From the NCBI GenBank assembly GCA_009693055.1, contig SHYA01000001.1:124001-188000 (forward strand): 64,000 bases of DNA. Direction: 5' to 3'. The notes beneath the pieces were generated by a model that saw only the letters and a program-made list of their open reading frames with translations, was not told the origin of the DNA and searched no databases. Positions 4,043-12,839 of the stretch are shown in pieces. This stretch comes from Dehalococcoidia bacterium (GTDB taxonomy: Bacteria > Chloroflexota > Dehalococcoidia > Lucifugimonadales > SHYT01). Position numbers and translations under genes: made by a program. Numbering within the stretch: the first letter of the stretch is position 1; each line of letters opens with the position of its first letter.

Positions 4043-4081
4043 TTTCAGCAAGTGTTCAGGGTGCGTTCAGGCCTCATTCAG
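4043..4081 (+). promoter_or_regulatory. Four TTCAG direct repeats at exact 11-bp period
   Basis: Hexamers TTTCAG (4043), GTTCAG (4054), GTTCAG (4065) and ATTCAG (4076) are separated by 5 bp each, giving exact 11-bp periodicity. This is the architecture of PhoB/PhoP/OmpR-family winged-helix sites. A -10-like TACGCT at 4103-4108 follows after 21 nt, which would place the array over the -35 region of the ABC permease promoter. The same design recurs at 12173-12211. Confidence 0.6.
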
Positions 4082-4198
4082 CCGTTGCAACGCAGACTTC
4101 CCTACGCTGGAAATACGGTGAACTGAGCGCCAATGTGCCGCTCGGGCCTATCGACTCTGCGGCGGCAAGGGAGCGGACAGAGGGACAGGACCCTTGAA

Positions 4199-5305
4199 GT
4201 GGTAGCGGTAGCCAGGACAAACCTCTTCGCCGAAAAGACCCGCCTGCTCATAACCGTGGGCGGGGTAGCCTTCTCAATCCTGCTAATCGTCATCCTGTGG
4301 AGCCTTTACCAGGCCTGGAACACCAAGATCACCGCGTACACCGACTCCACAGACGCCGATCTGTGGGTGGGCCAGGAAGGCGCCATGGACATGTTCCACT
4401 CGGTCTCCCTCCTCCCAACCGAAGCCCAAGAAGCGATAGAAGCCGTCCCTGGCGTGGCAACAGTCCGCCCATTCATTGGCCGTCAAGTCGCGTTTCGTCT
4501 CCGCGGGAAAGAAGTCAACACCTTCCTGGTGGGCTACGAGCCGGACACCGGGTTAGGCGGGCCGGTGCGGGTTGTCAGCGGGAGGGGCGTAGCCGCACCC
4601 GGCGAGATTGTTGTTGACACGGTGTTTGCCCGCAGCAACGGACTGAAGGTCGGCTCGCAGCTCAGCGTCCTCGACCGCCCCTTCACGGTCGTTGGCATCT
4701 CCACCGAAGAGAACCGGTTCGTCAACCAGTACTCGTTCGTCCTGCAAGACGATGCGCGAGAAGCCCTCACATCGCGGGCGTTCAACAACTACTGCCTCGT
4801 GAAAACGGCCTCCAACGCTGCTCGCGAAGCCGTCAAGAACGCGATAGACGCACTGCCGAGAGTCCAGGCGATCACGAAGAAGGAGTTCAAAGAGCTTAGC
4901 CGCGGCATCATAGACAGCACCTTCCTGCCCATCATCATCGTGCTGGTTGCGATTGGCATCGCCGTCGGCACGGCGGTTATCCGACTGACCATCTACACCG
5001 GGACCGTTGAGAAATCGCGAGAATACGCCGTCCTGAAGGAGGTGGGCGCCTCCAACTGGCGCCTCTACCGCATCGTCCTGGAGCAGGCCTTGCTTGCCAG
5101 CCTCATCGGGTACGGCGTTGGCGTAGCGGTCTCGTTTGGCGCCATCGCCCTCATTGAGCGGGAGGTCCCAGCCTTCCTGACCGCCGTGCGCGCTGCTGAT
5201 CTCGCTTCAATCCTTGGCATAGCCCTGGGTGTGGCCATCGTGGCCTCCGCCGTGCCGCTGCGAAGGATGCTCTCGCTAGACCCGGCTGTAGTCTTCAAAC
5301 AGTAA
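4199..5305 (+). CDS. FtsX/MacB/DevC-type ABC transporter permease
   Basis: About 368 residues: an N-terminal transmembrane helix (LLITVGGVAFSILLIVILWSL), a large extracytoplasmic domain, then three C-terminal helices separated by the conserved coupling segment EYAVLKEVGASNWRLYRIVL, and the LDPAVVFK end typical of FtsX-domain permeases. It would work with the ATPase encoded 12 bp downstream, in lipoprotein, heterocyst-like or antimicrobial-peptide export. I chose GTG 4199; an ATG at 4133 in frame is possible but adds a polar segment unlike family N-termini. It sits directly behind the 11-bp repeat array, so it is probably controlled by a response regulator. Its ATPase partner looks broken, so function is doubtful. 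Confidence 0.85.
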   Translation: MVAVARTNLFAEKTRLLITVGGVAFSILLIVILWSLYQAWNTKITAYTDSTDADLWVGQEGAMDMFHSVSLLPTEAQEAIEAVPGVATVRPFIGRQVAFRLRGKEVNTFLVGYEPDTGLGGPVRVVSGRGVAAPGEIVVDTVFARSNGLKVGSQLSVLDRPFTVVGISTEENRFVNQYSFVLQDDAREALTSRAFNNYCLVKTASNAAREAVKNAIDALPRVQAITKKEFKELSRGIIDSTFLPIIIVLVAIGIAVGTAVIRLTIYTGTVEKSREYAVLKEVGASNWRLYRIVLEQALLASLIGYGVGVAVSFGAIALIEREVPAFLTAVRAADLASILGIALGVAIVASAVPLRRMLSLDPAVVFKQ

Positions 5306-5316
5306 GGCGGCAAGCG

Positions 5317-5975
5317 ATGCAGAACAACGAGCCGGTACTCCTGCTGCAAAAGGTGGCCAAGACCTTTGGGCGCGGACCTGCCGCCGTCCACGCGGTCCGG
5401 GAAGTTGACCTGGAGGTGCCCAAGGGCGCCGTGCTGCTCATCATGGGACCGTCCGGCAGCGGGAAGACCACGCTCATCACCCTCGCGGGGGCCTCCTCAG
5501 GCCCACCAGTGGCAGCGTCCGCATCGCCGGACTCCGCCTTGAGGCGCTCTCAGACCGAGAGGTGAACCACGTCCGCCGCCGACTGGTGGAGTTCCTCTTC
5601 CAGTCGTTCAAGCTCCTGTCGGCGCTGTCAGCGCAGGAGAACGTGGAAGTGGTGATGAACATGGCGGGCATCCCCTCCAAGCAAGCAACAGCACGGGCCC
5701 AAGATCTCCTCGCCTCCATGGGCCTTTCGGGGCGCGCCAAGCACAAGCCCGCCGAGCTCTCCGGTGGCGAAAAGCAGCGCGTTGCCCTCGCCCGCGCCCT
5801 GGCGAACGAGCCCGCCCTCATCCTCGCAGAAGAGCCAACGGCCAACCTGGACTCGCAGCGCGGGCGCGAGGTGATGACGCTCCTCCGCACCATCGCCAAG
5901 GAGCAGGGACGCACAGTTGTCATCGTTGGCCATGATGCCCGCATCCGCGAGGTGGCCGACCACGTCCTGTGGATG
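5317..5975 (+). pseudogene. ABC transporter ATPase, frameshifted and truncated
   Basis: MacB/DevA-like ATPase read in two frames. The first frame holds Walker A GPSGSGKTT. After a run of five G at 5487-5491 the family sequence continues in another frame (GLLRPTSGSVRIAGLRLEAL), as if one G were missing. That second frame then gives the signature ELSGGEKQR, Walker B and the H-loop HD. The Walker B reads LILAEEP instead of the usual LILADEP, so the Mg-coordinating Asp is Glu. Near 5973-5985 the ATPase sequence stops and copper-ATPase sequence begins without a stop codon. A sequencing error could explain the frameshift alone, but not the Walker B change or the join. Confidence 0.75.
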
Positions 5976-6440
5976 ATTGACCGCGTCATCGCGGAAGTCC
6001 TCCCCGTCGAAAAGGAGCGTGTCATCCGCCGATTACAACAGCAGGGAGAAATCGTGGGCATGGTCGGCGACGGCGTCAACGACGCCCCCGCGCTGGCCGC
6101 CGCGGACATCGGCATCGCCATCGGCTCGGGCTCCGACGTCGCAAAGGAGACCGGCCGCATCATTCTGATCAAGGACGACATCCGGGACGTGGTGACCAGC
6201 ATCCGCCTCTCACGGGCGACGATGCGCAAAATCAAGCAGACCCTCTTCTGGGCGCTGGCCTACAACTCAGCGGCCATTCCCATCGCGGCCGTCGGGCTGC
6301 TGAACCCGATCATCGCCGCCGCGGCCATGGCCCTGAGCTCGCTCTCCGTGATCGTCAATTCCGCCCTCCTCAAGGGGGCAAGGCTGTCCGACGCCGGAGT
6401 TGTGAGGACCGTAGAAGAGCCAGAGAGGAAGGAGGGAAAA
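5976..6440 (+). pseudogene. C-terminal fragment of a copper P1B-type ATPase fused to the ABC ATPase
   Basis: From IDRVIAEVLP onward the frame matches the end of CopA-like ATPases: the hinge motif GMVGDGVNDAPALAAADIGIA, then two transmembrane helices (QTLFWALAYNSAAIPIAAVG and AAAAMALSSLSVIVNS). The metal-binding domain, CPC helix and DKTGT phosphorylation site, roughly 600 residues, are absent. The fragment is in frame with the preceding ABC ATPase remnant, so one long hybrid ORF results. The likely cause is a deletion joining two neighbouring transport genes, or an assembly chimera. It cannot pump metal on its own. Confidence 0.8.
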
Positions 6441-6608
6441 GTGACGCTCACAAAGGACCCGGTCTGTGGCATGGAAGTTGACCAAAAGAAAGCCGCCGGG
6501 CAGTACCGGCACGACGGGAAGACCTGCTCCTTTTGCTCCACCAAATGCCATCTCCGCTTCAAGGAAAACCCAAAGGCGTACGTCAACGGAGGCTCAAGAG
6601 GCTCGTAG
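6441..6608 (+). CDS. YHS-domain small protein (55 aa)
   Basis: YHS domains bind transition metals through the pattern DPVCGM...FCS..C, and here DPVCGMEV, SFCSTKC and the F-N-P-Y end are all visible. The domain is in frame with the upstream CopA fragment, but a GTG at 6441 is preceded by GGAGGG with good spacing. It was therefore probably a separate gene that became in-frame with CopA once the CopA stop was lost. YHS proteins commonly sit beside copper ATPases and donate or sense metal. It may be the one intact unit of this damaged group. Confidence 0.65.
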   Translation: MTLTKDPVCGMEVDQKKAAGQYRHDGKTCSFCSTKCHLRFKENPKAYVNGGSRGS

Positions 6609-11595: not shown

Positions 11596-12069
11596 GTGCA
11601 ACGCTGGAACGGGGCCGCCAGAGCCGCGCTCATCGCCACCGCCTTTGCGCTGGGTGGCATGCTGTGGCTCACACTCTGGCCCGACTACTACCGCGCCGAG
11701 TTTTCCCTCGCGCCTGCGGCGGCGCAGGACAGCTCAACCACGGCTTCTGCGGGGGCTTCCGCGGGCCAGACCGTCCACATCTCCCGCTCCCTCATTGACG
11801 AGCACGGCGCCAAGGTGGTGCTCCTCCTCCTGTTCCCCGTCGCCCTCGCCGCGCTCGGCCTGCTCGCCGTCTGGTGGCGGGACGTCGGCGGCAGCCGGAT
11901 CATCCTGTGGTGCAACGCCGTGGCCCTCGCCCTCTTCTGCGTCGTCACCCTCTTTTCCATCGGCGTCTTCTTCCTCCCTGCTGGCACCGCCCTGGTCACC
12001 TCCGCGGCCATCCACCAGCGCGCCTCCCAAACCGCGCTCCCTGCGAAGGGCCGCCGCGCCAAGCGCTAG
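11596..12069 (+). CDS. Membrane protein of unknown function
   Basis: 157 residues with three predicted transmembrane helices: residues about 8-28 (ALIATAFALGGMLWLTLW), 74-92 (VVLLLLFPVALAALGLLAVW) and 103-130 (ILWCNAVALALFCVVTLFSI). Between the first two is a Ser/Ala/Thr-rich extracytoplasmic stretch, and the tail is basic (KGRRAKR). I do not recognise a family. GTG start chosen because the -10 element leaves no room for a longer product. The TTCAG repeat region follows it. Confidence 0.6.
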   Translation: MQRWNGAARAALIATAFALGGMLWLTLWPDYYRAEFSLAPAAAQDSSTTASAGASAGQTVHISRSLIDEHGAKVVLLLLFPVALAALGLLAVWWRDVGGSRIILWCNAVALALFCVVTLFSIGVFFLPAGTALVTSAAIHQRASQTALPAKGRRAKR

Positions 12070-12172: not shown

Positions 12173-12211
12173 ATTCAGCCGCTGTGCAGGCCCCGTTCAG
12201 CCCGCGTTCAG
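12173..12211 (+). promoter_or_regulatory. Four TTCAG-type direct repeats at 11-bp period, upstream of the PAS gene
   Basis: ATTCAG (12173), GTGCAG (12184), GTTCAG (12195) and GTTCAG (12206), each with 5 bp between. A -10-like GAGAAT at 12233-12238 follows after exactly 21 nt, the same distance as in the copy at 4043-4081. This is direct-repeat architecture expected for a PhoB/OmpR-family regulator. Confidence 0.6.
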
Positions 12212-12294: not shown

Positions 12295-12639
12295 ATGGAG
12301 CCACGGGACATCCTGGAGATGCTCATCGCCTCACCCGATGGCACCTATGCGGTGGACACGGAACAGCGTGTGTTCCTGTGGAATGCCTCCGCGGAGCGGG
12401 CCCTGGGGTGGAAAGCGGAAGAGGTGCTGGGCAAGCCCTGTTACCAGGTGCTGGCGGGTCCCGCCGCCGTAAGGAAGGAGGCCCTTCCGTGCACCAGGGA
12501 CTGCGCCCCAATCCAGCAGGCGCGGCGCGGCAGCGTGGCCCCAGCCCAACGGCTCCTCGCGTTTACCAGGGAGGGCACGCCCCGGTGGATCTCCGTGACT
12601 CACGTCTTGGTGCCCTCCATGCGGTGTGGTACCAGGTGA
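12295..12639 (+). CDS. Stand-alone PAS domain protein, probably truncated
   Basis: 114 residues, essentially one PAS fold: DGTYAVDTEQRVFLWNASAER, the GWKAEEVLGKPCYQVL stretch, and a late strand WISVTHVLV. Cysteines in PCYQVL and LPCTRDC resemble PAS domains that, in relatives I know, are followed by a LuxR-type helix-turn-helix. Here the frame ends in SMRCGTR right after the last strand and no helix-turn-helix is seen in any downstream frame. It is therefore either a small sensor module or the N-terminal part of a lost regulator. ATG 12295 follows GAGGGGG. The array at 12173 is its likely promoter. Confidence 0.6.
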   Translation: MEPRDILEMLIASPDGTYAVDTEQRVFLWNASAERALGWKAEEVLGKPCYQVLAGPAAVRKEALPCTRDCAPIQQARRGSVAPAQRLLAFTREGTPRWISVTHVLVPSMRCGTR

Positions 12640-12790: not shown

Positions 12791-12839
12791 CTTCAGCCGC
12801 TATTCAGGATGTGCCCCGGTTTGTTCAGGCGCCGTTCAG
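12791..12839 (+). promoter_or_regulatory. TTCAG repeats, third region (two pairs)
   Basis: CTTCAG (12791) and ATTCAG (12802) are 11 bp apart, as are GTTCAG (12823) and GTTCAG (12834). The two pairs are 21 bp apart instead of 22. No clear gene start follows within 300 bp, so it may be a decayed or distant site. Confidence 0.4.

Follow-up and report, generated by a model that had tools for sequence, protein, structure and literature searches.

Four-block TTCAG arrays in Chloroflexota, predicted operators of an OmpR-family regulator of respiratory and stress genes

The PHO box of E. coli lies in the place of the −35 box, a layout like that of the arrays described here. ResD (Bacillus) and DosR/OsdR (actinobacteria), DosR being a member of the NarL family, are known for regulons containing cytochromes, heme or nitrite reductase genes and universal stress proteins. 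In these contents, for which PMC5069765 is a partial source, they are like the regulon of the arrays, but their site is different and DosR belongs to another regulator family. The PHO box read by PhoB/PhoP (in Streptomyces, GTTCACC repeats of 11 bp) shares with the arrays head-to-tail 11-bp repeats and a GTTCA-like core, and GTTCAG variants occur among the PhoP sites of Actinosynnema (PMC9019756). The promoters of the SARP activators AfsR and ActII-ORF4 carry direct repeats 11 or 22 bp apart, the last of which ends 8 bp from the −10 box (PMC10936776).

Here we analyzed 64,000 nucleotides of a Dehalococcoidia genome (hereafter the window) and compared 98 genomes, namely the window's own and relatives from the same order. 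Our reading, with a probability of roughly 0.72, is that the TTCAG arrays are activator operators of an OmpR-family response regulator, KdpE-like and paired with a PAS kinase in relatives, that drives respiratory and stress genes. In the open literature we found no description of the array motif or of such a regulon in Chloroflexota, and the regulon appears not to have been described before.

Arrays of the window

Two array types are distinguished by the spacing of their four blocks, 11-11-11 (type A) and 11-21-11 (type B). The first array and the operon behind it are as follows.

4043..4081, + strand: array 1, type A (11-11-11), TTTCAG/GTTCAG/GTTCAG/ATTCAG; read directly, 0.00 expected in shuffles
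4103..4108, + strand: TACGCT, probable −10 box 21 nt past the last repeat of array 1; position read, promoter presumed
4133..5305, + strand: MacB/FtsX-type ABC permease, probable target of array 1 (PF12704, PF02687)
5317..6608, + strand: ABC ATPase split between two frames (5317-5565 and 5562-6608), remainder of the operon (Pfam and NCBIfam matches)

The preliminary description had claimed four TTCAG hexamers with an 11-bp period, starting at 4043, 4054, 4065 and 4076, and a −10-like TACGCT 21 nt beyond them. Both are exactly as claimed, the blocks occupying 4043-4048, 4054-4059, 4065-4070 and 4076-4081. The type-A array of the relative G001 has TACGCT 22 nt downstream of its repeats. The permease, whose true start is perhaps GTG 4199 judging from homologues, shares 57% identity with a permease behind a type-B array in G086 and 56% with one in G059; the homologous transporter operons of these two genomes likewise bear an array.

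A frame change near 5540-5565 splits the ABC ATPase gene. Its second frame (5562-6608) runs on, with no further shift, into the C-terminal third of a copper P-type ATPase plus a YHS domain; the arrangement at 5317-6608 would reflect a deletion, a fusion of genes or a joint made in assembly.

The window holds two further arrays, at 12173-12211 and 12791-12839, that the preliminary description had overlooked; with array 1 included, the whole genome has five (two of type A and three of type B).

11596..12069, + strand: conserved membrane ORF upstream of array 2, with a homologue in the same place in G001 (read from locus L235)
12173..12211, + strand: array 2, type A (11-11-11), ATTCAG/GTGCAG/GTTCAG/GTTCAG; 1 mismatch in 20
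12295..12639, + strand: PAS protein behind array 2 (PF00989; 66% identity to the PAS-LuxR protein of G001)
12791..12839, + strand: array 3, type B (11-21-11); 0 mismatches in 20, stretch downstream noncoding
C1:138509 and C9:169530, outside the window: type-B arrays with one mismatch each

Array 2 and the PAS gene are orthologous to an array and a PAS-LuxR gene in G001, with the same gene upstream; the G001 protein has a LuxR-type DNA-binding half that is missing from the window's PAS protein. Between the two promoters, 19 of 20 positions are kept in the repeat blocks against 9 of 18 in the spacers, as counted by eye from the alignment. In G002, from the same family as the window, the PAS-LuxR gene is present and its promoter has no array. 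Behind array 3, there is no clear gene start before 13180.

Four TTCAG blocks with an 11-bp period (≤3 mismatches) were found twice in the window, compared to 0.00 expected from 100 dinucleotide shuffles, and TTCAG-N6-TTCAG pairs with at most one mismatch nine times, compared to 2.25 expected. Across the 1.51 Mb genome, 10 such pairs are exact, whereas the reversed control pattern gave 0. The arrays are real, conserved and far above chance, and most likely an operator. We give almost no credence to the idea that they arose by chance or are a minisatellite-type tandem repeat without function. Some database matches are indeed plain tandem repeats, but here the spacers vary from one unit to the next, type B leaves out one turn, the blocks are kept while the spacers diverge, and the distance to the −10 box is fixed (see below). 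The fixed distance and the footprint of conserved blocks refute a functionless repeat.

Promoter layout, spread and target genes

Type-B arrays (≤3 mismatches) numbered 3 in G030, 5 in G039, 9 in G059, 14 in G074 and 9 in G086, with zero reversed-control matches in each; the counts in the remaining genomes of the 98 were near control level. A looser three-block pattern was too permissive for classifying genomes, and the calls of gene starts and operons come from simple scripts. Scanning GTDB genomes for exact type-B arrays returned 42 stretches, about 15 of them in Chloroflexota. The arrays are thus kept in relatives and recur upstream of genes at a fixed distance to the −10 box.

We aligned 41 type-B sites, which gave the consensus TTCAGGa.tT.TTCAGG, a gap, then tgTTCAGGC..tGTTCAGG. 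Past the last TTCAG, the start of a TAnnnT box falls at exactly 11 nt in 56% and at exactly 10 nt in 22% of the sites, 78% together, and at nearly no other offset. Because the sites had been picked by their repeats alone, the box is independent evidence of a promoter. Type-B half-sites start 15/16, 26/27, 47/48 and 58/59 nt upstream of it. In the few type-A sites of the window's family, about 21/22 nt separate the last repeat from the −10 box, a helical turn more than in type B, and array 2 has a weak box. Counted from the −10 box, both types fall on a common lattice, at about −15, −26, −47 and −58 for type B and −26, −37, −48 and −59 for type A. Some arrays have a weak −10 box or, like array 3, no clear gene downstream.

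The arrays thus place direct repeats at intervals of one DNA turn ahead of a promoter, as OmpR/PhoB-type operators do. By analogy with activators of this family, the two pairs of half-sites suggest two head-to-tail dimers. The preliminary description had proposed a head-to-tail site of this type, and the recurrence of the repeats, their conservation and the fixed −10 distance support it as a predicted site.

The window's genome shares several target families with array-bearing genes of relatives: the ABC permease (57/56%), a GNAT acetyltransferase (43%), a universal stress protein (52%) and the PAS protein (66%, G001). These target families recur in other genera, also beyond the window's own family within the order. 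Targets seen in relatives include two cytochrome c-cd1 proteins (PF02239, E 1e-129 and 1e-134) and, in the operon of locus L156, NosZ (TIGR04246, above cut-off). Further targets there are a NirK-like (nitrite-reductase-like) multicopper oxidase, NrfD, COX1, CBS and OsmC, and a ferrochelatase lies behind an array with a flavoprotein beside it. Pairs of a kinase and a NarL-type regulator, judged by eye, also lie behind arrays. The putative target set reads as a regulon of nitrogen-oxide and oxygen respiration, heme supply and stress survival. The suggestion of an uncharacterised regulon gains support from this recurrence and conservation. Of the phosphate, copper and stress genes that the preliminary description had named for checking, stress genes are indeed present and copper fits weakly; the phosphate part did not hold, since the pst-phoR-phoB cluster has no array.

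Candidate regulators

In five relatives (L134, L137, L143, L173 and G039), a gene for a KdpE-like response regulator and one for a PAS histidine kinase lie directly beside a type-B array, which links the arrays genetically to an OmpR-family regulator. The order is kinase, regulator, array, target in the first four and divergent in G039. Compared to the G030 copy, the regulators are 63-68% identical in the four GTDB loci and 78% in G039. Close copies (at least 78%) occur among the 98 genomes only in G030, G039, G059 and G086, the next best match being 55%; this amounts to four of the six array-rich genomes and none of the other 92. The chance of this four-of-four co-occurrence is about 4e-6 if genomes are taken as independent, which they are not, three sharing a genus. 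G074, with the most arrays of all, yielded no copy in an assembly 77% complete. Going by gene neighborhood and co-occurrence, the KdpE-like protein is the probable regulator reading the arrays in relatives. The array-linked kinases combine PAS domains bearing a recurrent cysteine motif with GAF, Cache or heme-motif sensor parts, the sensor part of the L143 kinase having a CxxCH heme motif. These cysteine and heme motifs suggest redox sensing.

The solved structures most closely related to this regulator are KdpE entries (4kny, 4kfc). Its score on the KdpE equivalog model is however 207.4 bits, below the cut-off of 325, and the array system differs from the Kdp potassium regulon in the sensor parts of its kinases and in its respiratory targets. 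By the curated model the regulator is not KdpE.

A PHO box read by PhoB would make this a phosphate regulon, and the 11-bp direct repeats and the GTTCAG variants of Actinosynnema speak for it. The preliminary description had drawn a similar parallel. Yet the regulator beside the arrays is KdpE-like and scores 192.6 bits on the PhoB model TIGR02154 (cut-off 296.2), the pst-phoR-phoB cluster of the window's genome has no array, and the targets are respiratory and stress genes. In addition, G030, G039, G059 and G001 bear arrays and have no such PhoB among their OmpR-type matches. The arrays also differ from PHO boxes in their TTCAGG core and paired 11-21-11 layout. Since phosphate genes are without arrays and the linked regulator is not PhoB, this reading is largely refuted, and we hold it to be very improbable.

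Only slightly better placed is a SARP-type activator, which joins an OmpR-type DNA-binding domain to a BTAD domain. With the repeat taken as a heptamer, type B is compatible with SARP promoter geometry, namely a repeat interval of 11 or 22 bp and an end about 8 bp short of the −10 box, and a PAS-SARP gene lies behind an array in G059. However, we found no convincing BTAD protein in the array-bearing genomes G000 (the window's own), G001 and G039. With three array-bearing genomes lacking a SARP, the arrays are not a general SARP site, and we judge this explanation likewise very improbable.

For the window itself, the identity of the regulator is a separate matter. G000 and G001, both array-bearing, have no close copy of the relatives' KdpE-like regulator. 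Three OmpR-type proteins are encoded in G000. The gene of the first is clustered with those of a phosphate-type binding protein, an ABC permease and ATPase and a PAS kinase, a cluster that we read as pst-phoR-phoB; the second, GlnR-like, has ammonium transporter and P-II genes for neighbors; and the third, at C6:95911, is a KdpE-like response regulator that stands as an orphan. Neither of the two clusters has an array. The GlnR-like protein is an unlikely regulator, being also present in G002, which has no arrays. The best remaining candidate for the window's arrays is the orphan, about 45% identical to the array-linked regulator, but overall it is no closer to that regulator than the genome's PhoB is.

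A different regulator, the orphan or another protein, might then read the arrays in the window's family, with the close KdpE-like system serving relatives only. Besides the missing close copies, this would fit the type-A arrays of the family and their shifted −10 box, for which the regulator may have diverged, and the fact that the orphan is the sole OmpR-type protein of G000 not tied to phosphate or nitrogen genes. On the other hand, the type-B sites of G000 are near-identical to those of relatives and precede the same target families. We put this explanation at a little under even odds.

Other candidates were discarded. Autoregulation did not serve as a pointer to the regulator, as among the OmpR-type loci first examined an array lay upstream of the PAS-SARP gene only. 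A BldC-like protein, encoded by a later gene of one array operon, has clear copies only in G001 and G039 and none in G074 or G086. Several LuxR/NarL proteins lie behind arrays and look like targets, and the single one of G000 has no array link.

Two loci show further variations. At L156, the array before the nosZ operon has as neighbors a kinase gene and the gene of another OmpR-type regulator, which shares about 34% identity with the KdpE-like one. In G002, the one family member without arrays, stops and a frame change interrupt the gene of a KdpE-like response regulator (C25:61683-61909; L080, L082); as the gene is not of the close array-linked type, the coincidence is only suggestive.

Proposed mechanism and look-alike sites

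We propose that two head-to-tail dimers of an OmpR-family regulator occupy the four TTCAG(G) half-sites along a single face of the DNA. The promoter has a sigma70-type −10 box immediately downstream of these and no good −35 box, and the bound regulator would recruit RNA polymerase; we infer activation from this promoter layout. In type A, as at 4043, the half-site set would act from one helical turn farther up than in type B. In relatives, the KdpE-like regulator is most likely phosphorylated by the neighboring PAS-containing histidine kinase, the trigger probably being a redox, oxygen or nitrogen-oxide signal. It would then turn on genes for nitrogen-oxide reduction, cytochromes, heme, transporters, universal stress proteins and GNAT proteins and, at 4043, the regulator would turn on the MacB/FtsX-type exporter.

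A broader proposal has, in our view, an even chance of being right: a widespread, undescribed two-component regulon of Chloroflexota, in which KdpE-like regulators and cysteine-motif PAS kinases would couple nitrogen-oxide respiration and heme/cytochrome supply to a universal-stress-protein response via a two-dimer operator able to skip one helical turn. The site, its strict −10 spacing, the targets and the candidate regulator form a directly testable model of how mostly uncultured Chloroflexota may turn on nitrite- and nitrous-oxide-reducing respiration and stress survival. The array can also guide the assignment of function to unknown genes, since whatever gene follows one is a regulon candidate.

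PAS domains with recurrent cysteines (C ... CxxxC or similar) were seen at L109 and L208, in the PAS-LuxR protein of L091 and in the kinases of L137, L143 and L185. The pattern, common to kinases and several array-controlled proteins, is perhaps a metal or redox site.

Most of the GTDB matches outside Chloroflexota stood alone or belonged to tandem repeats, and we left these out of consideration. In Paenibacillus mangrovi (L172, 5872-5919), TTCAG-type blocks at 11 bp precede a secreted-protein-like gene, with TATAGT 10 nt past the last block; another regulator may have arrived at a similar site by convergence. A record named Isosphaeraceae (L140) is like the Chloroflexota locus L156 in its array, in the −10 distance and in the cupredoxin-like gene that follows, and the contig may be mis-binned.
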